Shown: positions 18,229 through 26,275, numbered from the stretch's first letter. The stretch is 38,159 nt of DNA from Anaeromyxobacter sp. (GCA_025360965.1 JANYBC010000127.1:1-38159), one strand, 5' to 3'. The notes: generated by a model not told the origin, from the letters alone. Program-made: numbers and translations.

Positions 18229-18516
18229 ATGAAGCGCCTCGCCCTCCTCCTCGCCCTCTCCGCACCGCTGGCCGCCCAGGCCGGCGAGTCGGGGCTGGTG
18301 GTCTTCCACGGAAAGTGCACGCGGTGCCACGGCGCCGACGGGCGGGGCAAGGCCATCTTCAACACCCCGAGCATGCTCACCTCCAAGCTGAGCGCCGCCG
18401 AGATGGAGCAGGTTATCGCCAACGGCCGCGCCAAGATGCCGGCCTTCAAGGCCCAGCTCGCCCCCGACGAGATCAAAGCGGTGGCCGCCTTCATCAAGGC
18501 CGAGCTCAAGCCGTAG
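18229..18516 (+). CDS. Small periplasmic class I cytochrome c
   Basis: A 95-residue exported monohaem cytochrome. Residues 1-18 are a signal peptide ending in AQA. The haem-binding motif is C30-T-R-C33-H34 and the likely axial Met is M70 in KMPAFKAQL. The rest (LSAAEMEQVIANG, then PDEIKAVAAFIKAEL) is the normal helical closure of the fold. GGAG 7 bases before ATG 18229 fixes the start. It probably shuttles electrons in the periplasm; a partner oxidase or reductase is not encoded nearby. A 7-bp hairpin (GTCCGCG/CGCGGAC, 18192-18208) sits in its 5' leader region. Confidence 0.93.
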   Translation: MKRLALLLALSAPLAAQAGESGLVVFHGKCTRCHGADGRGKAIFNTPSMLTSKLSAAEMEQVIANGRAKMPAFKAQLAPDEIKAVAAFIKAELKP

Positions 18517-18562: not shown

Positions 18563-21500
18563 GTGACCGCCCCGCTCCTCGCGCTCTGCGCGCTGCTGGC
18601 CGCGGCGCCGCTTCCTGCCGCGCCCGGAGCGGAGGCCCCCCGCGACCTGGCCGCCGAGCGCGTCGCCGCCGCCATCGCCGCCCTCGACCGCGACCACGGC
18701 CCGCGCGCCGTGGTCGCCATGGCCGAGCTGCGCGAGCTGGCCGACCAGGTCCCTGATCGCACCAGGGCGATGCTGGCGCTCGGCCGGCTGCTCGACGATC
18801 CGGCCGCCGACGCCGAACTCCGGGCCCTGGCGCGCCTGCGGCTGGCCCGCGAGGAGCGGGCCCGCGGCAACCTGCAACGCGCTGCCACCCACCTCGGCAA
18901 GCTCGGCTTCGTCGGCCGCTGGCTGGTGATCGGCCCCTTCGACGACGAGGGGCGCCTGGCCCACGACCGCGCCGCGCCGCCCGAGCAGGCCATCGACCTC
19001 GGCGCCCGGCTGCCGGGAAAGGGGCGTGAGGTCGGCTGGCGTCCGCTGCCGCCCGAGGCGATCGTGGACGGTGAGGTGGCGCTCGGCGCCGTGCTCCGCC
19101 CCGCCGAGCAGGTGGCGGCCTACGCCCTGGCGGTGGTCGACAGCCCGCGCGAACAGCCGGCCCGCCTCTGGCTGGGGGCCAGCGGGCGGACCAAGGTCTG
19201 GGTCAACGGGGTGCAGGCGCTGGAGGACCGCGTTGACCACCCGGTCCGGCTCGACCAGCACGGGGCGCTGGTGACGCTGCGGGCCGGCCCGAACCGGCTG
19301 CTGGTCAAGCTGGCGCACGGCACCGGCTGGATGGGCTTCAGCCTGCGCCTGGCCGACGCCCACGGCGACGGCCTCTACTTCACGAATCGTGAACCCTCGG
19401 CGGTGCTGGAGTCGCTGCCGCCGCTCCCCGCCCCCGGGGCTGCGCCGCAGCCACTCCCGGGGCTGGTGGAGCGGCTGGGCCAGAAGGTGGCCGCGCTGGG
19501 GGTGGTGGGCGGCGAGGCGGGCCGGCGGGCCAAGGCCGAGGCGCTCTTCGCGCAGGTGGTCGCCCTGGCGCTGCGCCGCACCTTCGAGCCGCGCACCGCC
19601 GAGCCGGCGGTGCTGGCGCGGAAGCTGGTCGAGCTGGCGCCGCGCTGGCTGGAGGCGCGGCTGCTGGCCGCCTCGCAGGAGGAGGACCGCAACCGCCGCC
19701 TGCTCCAGCTGCGCGCCGCCGAGGCGCTCGACCCCGGTGAGCCCCGGGTGCAGCGCCGGCTCGCCGAGGAGCTGCTGCGGCTCGACCGGGCCCAGCAGGC
19801 GGTGCCGGCGGCCGAGCGGGCGGTGGCGGCGGCGCCGGGCTGGGTGGAGGGGCGGCTGGCCCTGGCCGAGGCGCGGGAGCGGGCCGGGCAGGGGGCGCGG
19901 GCCAGGCGTGAGCGGCTGGGGCTGGCCGACCTGGTGCCGGCCACCTCGCCAGCGCTGGAGGCGGCCGCAGCGGCGGCGCGCGACGGCGGCGAGCTGCGGC
20001 GGGCCGCGGGGCTCATGCGGACCGCGGTGGCGCTGGCCTTCGACCTGCCGGCCCCGCGCGCCCAGCTGGTCGGGTTGCTGCTGCAGCTGGGTGACGTGGC
20101 CGGGGCGGCCGTGCTGCTGCAGGAGGCGCTCCGGCTCGATCCCGGCGACGCCTCGGTGCGGCTGCGGCTCGGTGACCTGCTGGCGGCCAACGGCCGGGAG
20201 CCGGAGGCCGAGGCCCAGTACGCGGCGGCGCTGGCGCTCTGCGAGGAGGACGCCGAGGCCTGGGAGCGGCGCGGCAGGGCCCGGCTGCGGGCCGGGCGGC
20301 GCGGCGAGGCGCTCGCCGACCTGCGCCGCTCGCTGGAGCTGCGCCCTCAGCAGCCGGCGCTCAAGGAGCTGGTGCTCGGCCTCGAGCCGCAGCGCGAGCC
20401 GTTCGAGGCCCCCTACGCCATCGACGCCGCGGCGCTGGCGAGCCGGCCGCTGCTGGCCGCGCCCGGCGACGACCTCGTGGTGCTGGCCGACCTCGAGGTG
20501 GTCCGGGTGCAGCCGAGCGGCCTCTCCTCGCGCTACCAGCAGACCGTCATCAAGGTGCTGACCCAGCGAGGCGCCGACCAGGCACGCCAGCAGTCGGTCT
20601 CCTTCACGCCGGGGCGGCAGGAGCTGCGGGTGGAGCGCGGACGCATCCACAAGCCGGGCGGCGCGGTGGTCGAGGCCTGGGACGACCGCGAGTCGAGCGG
20701 CAGCGAGCCCTGGTACCGGATGTACTACGACACCCACGTCCGCACCCTGAGCTTCCCGTCGCTCCAGCCCGGCGACGTGCTCGAGGTGGCCTGGCGGCTC
20801 GACGACGTGGCCGACGCCAACCTGCTCTCCGACTCCTTCAACGAGCTGGTGCTGGTCGACGGCGGGCCGGCGCGCCGCCGCCTCGACTACGTGCTGCTGG
20901 TCCCGGCCGGGCGGGTCGTCCACGCCAACCAGCCGCGCGGGGTCACCCACACCGAGCGCTCTCTCCCCGGGCGGCTCATCGAGCACCGCTGGACCGCAAC
21001 CGACCTCCCCCGCTTCGTCTCCGAGCCGCGCCAGCCGGGCTGGTCGGAGCTCTTCAGCTTCCTCCACGTCTCCACCTTCGCCAGCTGGGACGAGGTCAAC
21101 CGCTTCTACTGGGGGCTGGTGAAGGACCAGCTCCGGCCCGGCGACGAGCTGCGCGCGCTGGCCAACCAGCTGACCGGCGAGGCGCTCAAGGCCCGCGGGC
21201 TTTCGCCCACGCTGCCGGCCGGCGGCGGCGACGCGCTCGAGCCGGGGGCGCGCCGCGCCGTGGTGGCGGCGCTCCACGCCTTCGTGGTGACCCAGACCCG
21301 CTACGTGGCGCTCGAGTTCGGCATCCACGGCTACAAGCCCTACGCGGTCGACCAGGTGCTCAACCGCCGCTTCGGGGACTGCAAGGACAAGGCCTCGCTG
21401 ACCCACGCGCTGCTGGCGTCGGTCGGGATCGACTCGCGCCTGGTGTTGCTTCGGATGAGCAACCTCGGCGCCATGCCGGCGGCGCCGGCCTCGCTGGCGA

Positions 21501-22330
21501 TCTTCAACCACGCCATCCTGCGCGTCCCCTCGCTCGACCTCTGGCTCGACGGCACCGCCGAGCAGAGCGGCAGCATGGAGATCCCGGGCGCCGACCGCGG
21601 GGCCACCGTGCTGGTCATCAACCCCGACGGGCCGCCCGGCTTCGGCACGCTGCCGCAGGCCCGGCCGGACGAGAACCGCTCCGAGACCACCATGGCCTTC
21701 TCGCTGGCCGCCGACGGCTCGGCCGCGCTCGAGGCGAGCTACCTGCAGGTCGGGGCGCGGGCCCCGGCCCTGCGCCGCGCCTACCGGGCGGAGGTCGACC
21801 GCACCAGCTCCCTGGAGCGCTCGCTGGGACGGCTCTACCCGGGGCTGCGGGTCGAGCAGGTCAGCTTTTCCGACCTCACCCAACTGGAGGAGCCGGTGCG
21901 CCAGCGCTACACCGCCAGCCTGCCGCGCTTCGCCCGCGCCGAGCCGGGCGCGCTCACCTTCAACCCCTTCGGCGAGCCGCCCAGCATGACCGACGCCTGG
22001 GCCCCCTTCTCGTCGCGCCGCCAGCCGCTCAGGCTGGAGGAGCCGTCCACCAGCCGGGCCAGCTACCGGGTCACCCTCCCGGCCGGGTCCACCCTGGGTG
22101 AGCTCCCGGCACCGGCCGGCTCCGACGGCCCGCACCTGGCCTGGGCGCTCGTCTACCGGGTCGAGGCCGGGCAGCTCACCGCCGAGTTCACGCTCACCTG
22201 GAAGAGCATCACCATCCCGGCCGAGGACTACCCGGTCTTCCGCGCCCAGCTCATCGCCCTCGACCGGGCGGTGACGCGGCGGCTGACGGCCCGCCTGGCG
22301 CCGCCTGGCGCGGCAGGGGCTCCGCGGTGA
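18563..22330 (+). CDS. Giant secreted protein: beta-sandwich, TPR, DUF3857 and transglutaminase-like domains
   Basis: A 1,255-residue exported protein. Residues 1 to about 22 are a signal peptide. Residues about 113-265 look like a jelly-roll domain (GRWLVIGPFDDEG, ARLWLGASGRTKVWVNGVQ, NRLLVKLAHGTG). TPR-like helical repeats span about 320-610. A DUF3857 domain is at about 640-810 (SRYQQTVIKVLTQRGADQ, LQPGDVLEVAWRLDD). A transglutaminase-like domain is at about 890-1000 with an intact triad: C940 in FGDCKDKA, H983 in FNHAIL and D996 in WLDGTA. A beta-rich tail follows. DUF3857-transglutaminase proteins are typically exported and of unknown substrate. It starts at GTG 18563 and overlaps the next, paralogous gene by 4 bases. 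Confidence 0.85.
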   Translation: MTAPLLALCALLAAAPLPAAPGAEAPRDLAAERVAAAIAALDRDHGPRAVVAMAELRELADQVPDRTRAMLALGRLLDDPAADAELRALARLRLAREERARGNLQRAATHLGKLGFVGRWLVIGPFDDEGRLAHDRAAPPEQAIDLGARLPGKGREVGWRPLPPEAIVDGEVALGAVLRPAEQVAAYALAVVDSPREQPARLWLGASGRTKVWVNGVQALEDRVDHPVRLDQHGALVTLRAGPNRLLVKLAHGTGWMGFSLRLADAHGDGLYFTNREPSAVLESLPPLPAPGAAPQPLPGLVERLGQKVAALGVVGGEAGRRAKAEALFAQVVALALRRTFEPRTAEPAVLARKLVELAPRWLEARLLAASQEEDRNRRLLQLRAAEALDPGEPRVQRRLAEELLRLDRAQQAVPAAERAVAAAPGWVEGRLALAEARERAGQGARARRERLGLADLVPATSPALEAAAAAARDGGELRRAAGLMRTAVALAFDLPAPRAQLVGLLLQLGDVAGAAVLLQEALRLDPGDASVRLRLGDLLAANGREPEAEAQYAAALALCEEDAEAWERRGRARLRAGRRGEALADLRRSLELRPQQPALKELVLGLEPQREPFEAPYAIDAAALASRPLLAAPGDDLVVLADLEVVRVQPSGLSSRYQQTVIKVLTQRGADQARQQSVSFTPGRQELRVERGRIHKPGGAVVEAWDDRESSGSEPWYRMYYDTHVRTLSFPSLQPGDVLEVAWRLDDVADANLLSDSFNELVLVDGGPARRRLDYVLLVPAGRVVHANQPRGVTHTERSLPGRLIEHRWTATDLPRFVSEPRQPGWSELFSFLHVSTFASWDEVNRFYWGLVKDQLRPGDELRALANQLTGEALKARGLSPTLPAGGGDALEPGARRAVVAALHAFVVTQTRYVALEFGIHGYKPYAVDQVLNRRFGDCKDKASLTHALLASVGIDSRLVLLRMSNLGAMPAAPASLAIFNHAILRVPSLDLWLDGTAEQSGSMEIPGADRGATVLVINPDGPPGFGTLPQARPDENRSETTMAFSLAADGSAALEASYLQVGARAPALRRAYRAEVDRTSSLERSLGRLYPGLRVEQVSFSDLTQLEEPVRQRYTASLPRFARAEPGALTFNPFGEPPSMTDAWAPFSSRRQPLRLEEPSTSRASYRVTLPAGSTLGELPAPAGSDGPHLAWALVYRVEAGQLTAEFTLTWKSITIPAEDYPVFRAQLIALDRAVTRRLTARLAPPGAAGAPR

Positions 22331-25300
22331 GCCGCCGCGCCCTGGCCTTGTGCGCCGCCGCGGCGCTGCTCCTGCTCGGCGCCTGCGCCGGACCGGCCGG
22401 GCTGGCCGGAGCCGGCGACGCCCCCTCTTCGGCCACCAGGCGGGCGCTCGATGGTTGGCTCGGCGGGCGGGCCGATCCGGCCCGAGCCCAGCTCGAGACG
22501 CTGGCGGCGGCCCGCCCCGACGACCCCTGGGCGCGCCTGGGAGCAGCGCTGCTGGCGGAGCGGGCGCTCCAGCCGGAGCGGGCGGTCGCGCACCTGGCGG
22601 CGCTCGTGGGGGCCAACCCGGACCACCCGCTGGCGCTGGTGGCGCTGCGCTCGCTGGCCCGGCTCAGCGCCGAGGCTCCCGACCAGGCGCTGGCCATCGA
22701 GCAGGCGCTGGCGGGGCTGCGCCCGCGACGGCCGCTGCAGGGGCTGGCGGCCTACCGGGTCCGCGTCGCCCGCATCGTCGTCGCCGAACGGCGCGGGGAC
22801 GGCGAGCGGGTGGCGGCGCTGCGGGCCGAGAACGGCACCATCTCGCGCTGGACCCTGGCCGGGCCCTTCGGCGCCTTCGCGCCGCTCGACTTCGAGCGCC
22901 CCTTCGCCCCCGAGCTGGGAACGCTCCCGGCCTCGCTGGAGGGGCCGCTGCTGGGACCGGCCCGGCCGACCCACCCGCTCGAGGTGCCGTCCGGGGAGCT
23001 CTCGCTCGACGGCGAGCCGTTCGACGGCGCCTACCACTACCTGGTCGCAGACGTCGAGGTGCTGGAGGGCGGTCCGCACCTCGCCATGGTCCGCGCCGAG
23101 GGCTCCTGGCGGGCTTGGCTCGACGGCGCGCCGCTGGCGGAGCGGCGCAGCTGGACCGGCACCGAGCCGGTGCAGCGCTTCGTCGCCGTCGATCTCGCTC
23201 GCGGCCCCCACCAGCTCCTCGTGAAGCTGGGGCGGGAGGCCGGTCCGCCGTCCCTGCTGCTCGGCTTCTCCCGCCTGGATGGCCGTCCGGCGCGGCTCAT
23301 CTCCAGCCCGCGGCCGCCCGGTCCGCTGCTCCCGGTGCGCGCCGGGCCCTTCCCGCCGGCGGCCTGGCGCCCCTCCGAGCTGGTGGCGGCGCTGCTGCCG
23401 GGCGGTCGGCCCGAGGCGCTGCTGCTGGGCGCGCTCGACTCGGTCAACGACCTCGAGACCGCCAAGGCGCTGGTGGAGGAGGGGCTGGCGCGCTCACCCG
23501 GCAACGCTCCCCTGCTGGCCCTGCGCGGCCGGCTCCACTGGAACGACGGATCGCTCGACGAGCAGGCGCGCCGCAACCTCGCCGAGCAGGCCTGGCGGCA
23601 GGCGCTGGCGCTCGACCCGGGCGACGGGCCGGCGCGGATCGAGCTGGCCCAGCTGCTGGTGGCGACCGAGCGCGCCGGGGACGCCGAGCGGCTGCTCTCC
23701 GAGTTGCCGGCACCGCTCGGCGAGCGCGGCCCGGCGCTGGTGGCGCGGGCCTACGTGGCCCAGGCGCGAGGCCAGTCCGAGGCGGCCACCGCGCTGTTGG
23801 AGCGGGCCCGGGCGGCCGGGACGCCCTGCGGCGCCGCGCCGCTCTTGATCGCCCAGGCGGTGGAGCGCGAGGCGGCGGCGCGGGAGGACGCCCTGGTGCT
23901 GGAGGGGCGCGGCTGCCCCGGCGGCCTGGAGCGGCTGGCGCAGCAGCGGCTGCGCCGTGGTGATCCGGCAGGCGCGCTGGAGCTGCTCGAGCCGCTGCGA
24001 CGCTGGCGTCCCACCGAGGCGCCGCTCGGCGCCAGGGTGGCCTCGGCGCGGCGGGCCTCCGGCGACGCGGCTGGGGCGGTCGCCCTCCTCCGGTCGCTCC
24101 GCGAGAGCTGGCCTCGCGATCCCTGGCTGGCCCGCGAGCTGGCCGACCAGCGCGAGCTCGGCGGTGATCGGGCCGGGGCCCGCGCCGCCCGCGAGGAGGC
24201 GCTCCGGCTCGACCCGGCCGACCTCGCCACCCGGCGGCTGCTGGCGCTCGAGGACGGGCGCGAGGCGCTCGACGACCTGGCCAGCGACAGCGGCCCGGTG
24301 CTGCGCGACTACCGGGCTGGCGATCCGAAGGAGACCGGCTCGTCGGTGCTGGTGCTCGACGCGGCCGCCGTCGAGCTCCACCCGGGCGGGGCCTCGACCG
24401 AGCGGGTCCACCAGGTGATCCGGCTGCTCGACCAGCAGGCGGTCGACCGTTACGGCGAGGTGATCCCGCCGGAGGGAGCCCAGCTGCTCCTGCTGCGGAC
24501 CATCAAGGCCGACGGCCGGGTCATCGAGCCGGACCTCGGCGACGCCAAGGGGAGCCACTCGCTCTCCAACCTCGAGCCTGGGGATTACTTCGAGCTCGAG
24601 TACCTGCGCGCCGAGCGGGCGCCGCGCCCGGTGCCGCCGCTCGGCACCAGCCCCTTCTACCTGGCCGAGCTTGGCGAGCGGGTCTTCGCCTCCAGCTACG
24701 TGGTCAGCGCCCCGCGCGGCTTCGCGCTGCAGGCCGACTCGCACCGGCTCGAGCCGCCGGCGGCGGTGGTGTTGGAGGGTGACCGGCAGGTGGTGCGGGT
24801 GGCGCGGCGCGAGGTGGCGCAGCTGCGCGCCGAGCCGCACTCGCCGCCCGGGCCGGAGCTGCTGCCGTTCGTCCAGGTCGGGGTCGGCGACGGCAGCGAG
24901 CCGGTGCAGGCCTGGCGGGCCAGCGGCATGATCGGCCTGCTCCGCTCCACCGGCGAGCTGCGGGCGGCGGCGGCGGCGGTCCGGGCCCGCTGCGGCGCCG
25001 GGGCCAGGCCCGAGGCGCTGGCGCGGGCCGCCTGGGAGGAGACCCGCCAGCGGCTCACCGGCGCGCCCGACCCGCAGCTGGCGCCGGCCAGCGTCATCCT
25101 CTCGCGGGGGCGCGGCAACCGGCTGGTGCTGATGGCGGCGCTGCTCGACGCGCTCGGGGTCGAGGCCCGCTTCGCGCTCGTCAACCCGTTCGACGCCAAC
25201 CAGGAGCCCTACCGCTTCGGCCGCGAGGAGGCCTGGCCGGTCCTCTTGCTCAAGGTGAGCCTGCCGGGTGGCGCCGCCTGGCTGGCCGGGAACGCCCGCC

Positions 25301-26049
25301 AGCTCCCCTTCGGCGCGCTGGCGGAGCGGCTGCGCGACCGCGAGGCGCTGCTCCTGCCGCGGCCGGGCGAGCCGCCAGTCCGGGAGCGGACGCCGGCCAG
25401 GGCGCCGGTGGCGGAAGGGCGCGAGATCGACTTCACGGTGCGGCTCTCGGCCGACGGCGCGGCCGAGCTCGACGTGATCGAGCGCTTCCACGGCGCGGTC
25501 GGCGCCGAGATCAAGGACGCCTTCGCCCGCATGGACCGCTCGCGCCTCAAGGAGGTGGTCGAGTCGCTCTACGCCGGCGCGCTGACCGGCCTCGCCATCG
25601 CCGAGGTCTCGCTCGACGGCGTCGAGTCGGCGGAGGGGCCCATGGGCATCCGCTGGCGCGGGCGCGCGCCGTCGCTGGGGAGGGCCAGCGGCGAGGGGCT
25701 GCAGGTGGAGCGGGTCGGGCTGCCGCTCCAGCTCGCCAGCCGGCTGGCCACCGTGGCGGCGCGGGCCCAGCCGCTGCTGCTCCCGGAGGCGATCGGCCTG
25801 ACTGCGCGGGTCCGGCTGGTCCCGCCGGCCGGGCTGGCGGCGGCGCCGGGGCCGGAGCTGAAGCTCGCGTCGCCGTTCGGCGGCTACCATCGGCGCGAGT
25901 GGATCGAGGACGGGGCGCTGCGCTGGGAGGAGCGGGTGACGGTGCCGCTGGCCCGCATCTCGCCGGCAGACTTCCCGGCCTTCGCCGCCTTCGCCGCGGC
26001 CATCGACGAGGCCCAGACCCGGCCGGTGGTGCTGCGCCAGGCACCCTGA
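22327..26049 (+). CDS. Giant lipoprotein paralogue with DUF3857 and a Cys-less transglutaminase-like domain
   Basis: A 1,240-residue lipoprotein (lipobox LLLGAC, Cys 20) with the same domain order as its upstream neighbour: helical start, jelly-roll-like region at about 175-320 (WTLAGPFGAF, WRAWLDGAPLAERRSW, HQLLVKLGRE), TPR-like repeats at about 355-645, DUF3857 at about 670-840 (TERVHQVIRLLDQQAVDRYG, LEPGDYFELEYLR) and a transglutaminase-like region at about 875-990. Where the paralogue has GDCKDKA, this one has GRGNRLV (residues 928-934), so the catalytic Cys is replaced by Gly. The domain is likely structural or binding only. The GTGA overlap implies the two are made together and may form a complex. 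Confidence 0.83.
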   Translation: MSRRALALCAAAALLLLGACAGPAGLAGAGDAPSSATRRALDGWLGGRADPARAQLETLAAARPDDPWARLGAALLAERALQPERAVAHLAALVGANPDHPLALVALRSLARLSAEAPDQALAIEQALAGLRPRRPLQGLAAYRVRVARIVVAERRGDGERVAALRAENGTISRWTLAGPFGAFAPLDFERPFAPELGTLPASLEGPLLGPARPTHPLEVPSGELSLDGEPFDGAYHYLVADVEVLEGGPHLAMVRAEGSWRAWLDGAPLAERRSWTGTEPVQRFVAVDLARGPHQLLVKLGREAGPPSLLLGFSRLDGRPARLISSPRPPGPLLPVRAGPFPPAAWRPSELVAALLPGGRPEALLLGALDSVNDLETAKALVEEGLARSPGNAPLLALRGRLHWNDGSLDEQARRNLAEQAWRQALALDPGDGPARIELAQLLVATERAGDAERLLSELPAPLGERGPALVARAYVAQARGQSEAATALLERARAAGTPCGAAPLLIAQAVEREAAAREDALVLEGRGCPGGLERLAQQRLRRGDPAGALELLEPLRRWRPTEAPLGARVASARRASGDAAGAVALLRSLRESWPRDPWLARELADQRELGGDRAGARAAREEALRLDPADLATRRLLALEDGREALDDLASDSGPVLRDYRAGDPKETGSSVLVLDAAAVELHPGGASTERVHQVIRLLDQQAVDRYGEVIPPEGAQLLLLRTIKADGRVIEPDLGDAKGSHSLSNLEPGDYFELEYLRAERAPRPVPPLGTSPFYLAELGERVFASSYVVSAPRGFALQADSHRLEPPAAVVLEGDRQVVRVARREVAQLRAEPHSPPGPELLPFVQVGVGDGSEPVQAWRASGMIGLLRSTGELRAAAAAVRARCGAGARPEALARAAWEETRQRLTGAPDPQLAPASVILSRGRGNRLVLMAALLDALGVEARFALVNPFDANQEPYRFGREEAWPVLLLKVSLPGGAAWLAGNARQLPFGALAERLRDREALLLPRPGEPPVRERTPARAPVAEGREIDFTVRLSADGAAELDVIERFHGAVGAEIKDAFARMDRSRLKEVVESLYAGALTGLAIAEVSLDGVESAEGPMGIRWRGRAPSLGRASGEGLQVERVGLPLQLASRLATVAARAQPLLLPEAIGLTARVRLVPPAGLAAAPGPELKLASPFGGYHRREWIEDGALRWEERVTVPLARISPADFPAFAAFAAAIDEAQTRPVVLRQAP

Positions 26050-26083
26050 ACGGCCCTTCGGCCTCATCAAGCGCCGCCAGGCT

Positions 26084-26275
26084 GTGCGACTTCGAGTCCC
26101 GGACGGTGAGTGCGGCCCGCCCATCCACCTCTACAAGCCCTTCAAGAACGGGGCCTGCATGCAGTGCCACTCGACCACGGCCAAGAGCTACCTCGAGAAG
26201 CACGCCGACAACGTCGAGGAGATCCGGTCCGAGGCGGTCCGCTGCATACCCCGCCGGCGGAGTAGCCGGCGCTAG
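26084..26275 (+). pseudogene. Remnant of a c-type cytochrome gene
   Basis: A short frame downstream of the giant lipoprotein contains IHLYKPFKNGACMQCHSTTA, with a full haem-binding CMQCH, then KSYLEKHADNVEEIRSEAVRC. This looks like the C-terminal part of a multihaem cytochrome where the last C-x-x-C-H would start at RC but instead reads RCIPRRRSSRR. No signal peptide or ribosome site is found upstream: the only start is GTG 26084, 34 bases after the preceding stop. It may be a truncated gene, or the two could once have been joined. The stop overlaps the hemW stop region (CTAG), tail to tail. Confidence 0.5.

Follow-up and report, generated by a model that had tools for sequence, protein, structure and literature searches.

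LapG is a periplasmic transglutaminase-fold enzyme that is held and controlled by the membrane-bound protein LapD (PMC4359373). Papain/transglutaminase folds that lack the cysteine are kept as binding modules in menin, Rad4/XPC and PAN2, according to the part of PMC10318531 consulted. These proteins are eukaryotic and, unlike the second protein reported below, none is described in that part of the paper as a lipoprotein in tandem with an active paralogue. The solved structure 3KD4 (BDI_1141, Parabacteroides distasonis; labelled 'putative protease') comprises a DUF3857 domain, a transglutaminase domain and a DUF3858-type C-terminal module. In the literature searched, no functional account of DUF3857 was found, one paper using the term noting only a gene beside lolA. 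No relevant paper connecting a transglutaminase with Myxococcus or Myxococcota was found there.

The window analysed here was a stretch of 38,159 nucleotides from a 3.8-Mb draft genome of Anaeromyxobacter sp. (GCA_025360965.1 JANYBC010000127.1:1-38159). Two of its genes, P1 and P2, were judged with a little better than even confidence to encode an ancient envelope enzyme-pseudoenzyme pair, made up of an exported cysteine enzyme and a membrane-anchored, non-catalytic partner. Their features, numbered from the first nucleotide of the window, were as follows.

18563-22330, + strand: P1, predicted exported TPR/DUF3857/transglutaminase-fold protein with an active-type site (GTG start, 1255 aa).
18920-19387, + strand: P1 beta jelly-roll, residues ~120-275 (AlphaFold2 secondary structure).
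19448-20383, + strand: P1 TPR superhelix, residues ~296-607 (Pfam, AlphaFold2 model, fold match).
20516-21013, + strand: P1 DUF3857 domain (Pfam).
21086-21577, + strand: P1 transglutaminase-fold domain with GDCKDKA motif (Pfam, alignment, AlphaFold2 model).
21380-21382, + strand: codon of the P1 catalytic-type Cys940 (invariant column, alignments of 25 and 38).
21509-21511, + strand: P1 His983 codon (invariant column, alignments of 25 and 38).
21548-21550, + strand: P1 Asp996 codon (invariant column, alignments of 25 and 38).
22327-22330, + strand: GTGA, the 4-base overlap of the P1 stop and the P2 start.
22327-26049, + strand: P2, predicted lipoprotein paralogue without the catalytic residues (GTG start, 1240 aa).
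22384-22386, + strand: P2 lipobox Cys20 codon, in LGAC (Cys column conserved in the family).
22846-23316, + strand: P2 beta jelly-roll, residues ~174-330 (AlphaFold2 model).
23371-24252, + strand: P2 TPR region, residues ~349-642, with family-conserved C501 and C530 (Pfam, model, alignment).
24340-24816, + strand: P2 DUF3857-like domain, residues ~672-830 (sub-threshold Pfam match at 745-831, model).
25111-25122, + strand: P2 residues 929-932 (R-G-N-R), the pseudo-active site that replaces GDCKDKA (61-row alignment).
25342-26046, + strand: P2 C-terminal domain (AlphaFold2 model).

An earlier sequence-only reading of this DNA had described two open reading frames of about 1,250 residues, overlapping by 4 bases and sharing jelly-roll, TPR, DUF3857 and transglutaminase-like parts in that order. 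The gene calls above agreed with it, and so did AlphaFold2 models, which were made of each protein singly from family alignments of 38 (P1) and 61 (P2) sequences. Mean pLDDT was 90.6 for P1 (pTM 0.66) and 94.1 for P2 (pTM 0.91). Domains were named from secondary structure, Pfam and the match to 3KD4. Both models contained, in the same order, N-terminal helices, a beta jelly-roll, a TPR superhelix, a DUF3857 beta-sandwich, a transglutaminase fold and a C-terminal domain. 3KD4 was the best PDB fold match of both (P1: E 7e-22, TM 0.82 on target; P2: E 2e-19, TM 0.71), the match extending over the DUF3857, transglutaminase and C-terminal parts. It shares the succession of DUF3857, transglutaminase and DUF3858-type modules with P1 and, to judge by the fold match, probably with P2; unlike them, it has 506 residues and no TPR or jelly-roll.

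P1 scored 83.9 bits against Pfam DUF3857 (PF12969; cut-off 24.6) and 26.0 bits against Transglut_core (PF01841; cut-off 23), and its TPRs were above the curated Pfam cut-offs. Transglut_core was matched by all 38 P1-type members at E<=0.01, the DUF3858 profile by 32 of the 38 relatives, the window's own P1 not among them, and RhaB_D2 (alpha-L-rhamnosidase domain D2), a profile that bears on the jelly-roll, weakly by 4 of 38. The LapG (BTLCP) profile belongs to a different Pfam family and gave no match in P1 up to E = 1. P1 is predicted to carry a Sec signal; Sec-like signals are common to its relatives, mostly without a lipobox.

The Cys-His-Asp triad claimed for P1 was intact, C940, H983 and D996 being invariant in an alignment of 25 sequences and their columns again in one of 38. 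GDCKDKA was retained in nearly all P1s, and the His and Asp with it. It may be argued that in effect neither P1 nor P2 works as an enzyme, the P1 triad being kept for folding and both proteins serving as a structural or adhesive scaffold. The Transglut_core score lies barely above its cut-off (26 against 23), and the literature searched gives no substrate or activity for the DUF3857 family, as such a scaffold would allow. Set against this, the triad and the D-x-K-D-K residues around C940 were invariant in 38 P1-type proteins whose mean column identity was 43%, and the scaffold reading was considered very improbable.

P2 presented the reverse picture in its transglutaminase fold. Its TPRs were found by Pfam, its DUF3857 match scored 22.3 bits, below the cut-off, with 3KD4 nonetheless the top fold match, and Transglut_core gave no match up to E = 1. 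GRGNRLV had been proposed to stand where GDCKDKA should be, with the Cys gone. The position and the loss of the Cys were upheld by the alignment of relatives; the loss proved wider than stated, as it extends to the His and, in this copy, to the Asp. The Cys turn was removed by a 3-residue deletion that leaves G-[NS]-R. This turn replaces GDCKDKA in most P2s, with G930 in 61 of 61 rows, N or S next in 57 and R932 in 58. The catalytic Cys was absent from every P2 aligned, and there was no conserved His column among them. The Asp was kept in most Myxococcia and was absent from Polyangia and from the window's own copy. A Cys supplied from another loop was likewise not found: none was conserved in the P2 transglutaminase fold, scattered Cys occurring in only 18 of the 61 rows. 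A candidate in-frame TGA (selenocysteine) at the lost Cys was discarded after a profile search and a check of coordinates, the 'stops inside' matches being terminal stop codons.

The P2 fold is under constraint. Compared with the P2 of its nearest full-length relative, that of the window species was 69% identical over the whole protein and 77% identical across the transglutaminase and DUF3857 regions, so that the dead transglutaminase domain ranks with the best conserved regions of the protein; dN was 0.22 and dS 0.47 (NG86). The replacement of the Cys turn is old and conserved, and P2 is therefore not a decaying gene. P2 has lost its catalytic residues while retaining the fold and purifying selection, and in this operational sense it can be called a pseudoenzyme. 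As judged from sequence, P1 has an active-type site, P2 has lost it and the dead fold is constrained.

The P2 turn might itself form a different site, binding a ligand or carrying out Cys-free chemistry. Its own conserved signature (the G, N/S and R columns counted above) and its placement in the AlphaFold2 models, at the beginning of the helix on which P1 has its Cys, are in keeping with this. A glycine-rich helix cap would account for the pattern equally well, however, and no His or Asp companion is conserved across the phylum, the Asp being mostly confined to Myxococcia. We regard a separate P2 site as improbable, and retain the reading of P2 as a non-catalytic partner of P1.

The designation of P2 as a lipoprotein was supported. 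The window sequence reads LGAC with C20, and 58 of 61 rows had the Cys in the lipobox-region column, at which the window's own row was trimmed. The exceptions formed one genus, g6 (L056, L057 and L058), in which the lipobox is lost and an ordinary signal peptide is found instead; the anchor is non-essential there, since the lipobox is lost. Two further cysteines in the TPR part, C501 (23827-23829) and C530 (23914-23916), were kept in 53 of 61 relatives, as would suit a disulfide formed where conditions are oxidising.

Relatives of P2 were found in 57 of 60 related genomes in a first search. The phylum-wide draw comprised 146 genomes, 97 of them in the order; the results of a profile search and of a search with an alignment of the transglutaminase domain were combined, and counts were taken by hand from the search tables. 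P1 and P2 were both present in 95 of the 97 genomes of the order, some P2s being cut by contig ends. The remaining two (G004 and G012) were without P1 and full-length P2, G012 having a P2 fragment. Their joint absence was dropped as evidence of a functional link: the orthologue of the neighbouring hemW is missing in G004 and lies at a contig edge in G012, so assembly gaps are equally likely. Outside the order, strong P1 matches (>150 bits) were obtained in 19 genomes. P2 lay directly downstream in 15; the remaining four have a contig end at that point. One P2 of the collection, L095 (BNCN01000002.1), is titled Comamonas sp. KCTC 72670; it is a typical Myxococcaceae P2 (1570 bits), and the record is therefore probably misnamed.

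A tree of 72 DUF3857-to-C-terminus regions placed 30 of 30 P1s and 30 of 30 P2s each behind a single branch (SH-aLRT 99). The two clades branch in parallel by family (Myxococcia, Polyangiaceae, Sandaracinaceae and deep Myxococcota), which dates the duplication to before the split of the Myxococcota families sampled. Midpoint rooting was used and P2 has some long branches, which leaves the branching order of P1, P2 and a third clade, P3, unsure. P3 lies beside P1 and consists of Cys-bearing proteins of similar size with intact GDCKDKA or GDCKDKS. Its members (L177-L183, L187, L188, L190 and L194) come from deep Myxococcota families and some Myxococcaceae, and some have a lipobox-like motif. Distances within P1 and P2 were correlated (mirror-tree r = 0.93, without species control), as expected from common species history alone.

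The genes were adjacent in most families. A start codon giving the 4-base overlap was present at 33 of the 40 tandem loci; removal of seven duplicate (same-genome) records left 27 of 33. Flanking genes differed between classes while the pair persisted, and no other gene was common across classes. The persistence of linkage through these changes of flank is the strongest sign that P1 and P2 form a unit, and not frozen synteny. Conservation as a unit, put forward earlier as a phylogenetic check, was thus supported by the two parallel clades, by the 95 of 97 genomes, by 15 of 15 loci outside the order and by the recurring overlap. At the level of sequence, these data show a single old duplication followed by co-retention and linkage, usually with a 4-base overlap.

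The neighbouring genes gave no clue to function. The genes gpmI, comF and hemW flank the pair in Myxococcia only, and these, the small cytochrome c and prmA were set aside as housekeeping or local, none being shared as a neighbour outside Myxococcia. The small cytochrome c-like gene (CTRCH) lies just upstream of P1 at 18229-18516 of the window and, among the loci compared, is common only to the closest relative, L052. A short stretch with a haem-type CMQCH motif (26080-26265), in which no gene was called, lies between P2 and hemW.

In families f2, f3, f4 and f6 the two genes lay on separate contigs or at a distance of 27-150 kb, both still being present. Among these families is the large-genome group to which Citreicoccus belongs, as do, by name, Myxococcus and Corallococcus; Myxococcaceae are among the families that keep both genes at a distance. 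The second gene standing alone had been named as evidence against the pair. This was seen only at the level of the locus, in the Myxococcaceae and in a small number of further families, and P1 was still in those genomes. The co-expression in equal amounts that was proposed earlier was not sustained as a requirement: entire families have the two genes at separate places, so co-translation is not obligatory.

These split families, together with the P2s of g6 that have no lipobox, weigh against a partnership. A rival account gives the proteins separate jobs, an old tandem duplication having been held in place by vertical descent while P2 took on an unrelated role as a binding lipoprotein. Retention of both unlinked genes in Myxococcaceae and three more families is consistent with this, as is the faster evolution of P2 (mean pairwise difference 0.73, against 0.63 for P1). 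It is less easily reconciled with a linkage and 4-base overlap that outlived rearrangement of all flanking genes, or with the almost constant co-presence of P1 and P2. Separate jobs were accordingly rated unlikely, and the most credible of the rivals to an enzyme-pseudoenzyme pair.

The enzyme-pseudoenzyme pair would work as follows. P1 would be exported by Sec, and its Cys-His-Asp site in the transglutaminase fold would act by cleavage or transfer on a substrate in the envelope or outside the cell, at an amide or peptide bond. P2 would be held by its lipid anchor in a membrane. It would most likely bind P1 through the TPR superhelix, the duplicated DUF3857-transglutaminase module or both. P2 may thereby tether P1 at the membrane and control or feed its active site, or present substrate to it, and the jelly-rolls may supply target binding. 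We infer from the data above a physical complex in which P1 is active and P2 regulates it; the cell compartment, the substrate, a location on the outer surface as opposed to the periplasm, and equal amounts of the two proteins are similarly presumptive. The most likely role of P2, by analogy with LapG/LapD and the inactive papain-fold scaffolds, would be to tether or regulate P1 or to present its substrate. LapG/LapD provides a model of how a membrane partner may control such an enzyme, although LapD is a c-di-GMP receptor and, unlike P2, not a dead paralogue.

Comparison outside the phylum drew on plasmid and viral collections. A plasmid record of Persicobacter psychrovividus, of the phylum Bacteroidota (L199:4203-8047), contained two DUF3857-transglutaminase genes sharing ATGA as a 4-base overlap, the first with YGDCKA and FNHVI and the second with TGNSAD and FNNVV. 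A plasmid record of Persicobacter sp. JZB09 (L202:4431-8271) contained a YGDCKD gene followed, after a 1-base gap, by an NTSNEA gene; its setting is unlike that of L199, with a SusD gene ~3 kb away. As in P1/P2, a Cys-less gene comes directly after an active-type gene. The Persicobacter proteins differ from P1/P2 in their size (613-671 aa) and in having no TPR or jelly-roll. Their Cys is replaced, whereas that of the Myxococcota P2 was removed by deletion, and the differing replacement motifs hint at possibly independent losses. Records from Aureibacter, Paraburkholderia and Agrobacterium had single DUF3857-transglutaminase genes. Active-plus-dead tandems thus recur beyond Myxococcota, in a tiny sample of two Persicobacter loci.

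The P1 transglutaminase-domain profile aligned YGTPLEIA of 3KD4 with FGDCKDKA of P1 (aligned residues 242-326). 3KD4 is therefore taken to lack the Cys, because GTPLEIA aligns to GDCKDKA. A broader proposal would make active-plus-dead tandems a general principle of DUF3857-transglutaminase proteins, the pairing having arisen or been kept in at least two phyla (giant TPR/jelly-roll forms in Myxococcota, short ones in Bacteroidota), with the dead half an obligatory partner and 3KD4 a dead half, not a protease. It is put forward tentatively, as the balance of probability lies somewhat against it.

P1 and P2 would represent an enzyme-pseudoenzyme pair from a known, uncharacterised domain family. 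A solved DUF3857 structure that is labelled a putative protease, and that by alignment has no catalytic Cys, serves as a warning. In Myxococcota, P1 and P2 are a near-universal, undescribed pair of ~130-kDa proteins, presumably of the envelope. They would be a clean case in which an enzyme and its dead sister have stayed together from a time before the families of the phylum split.
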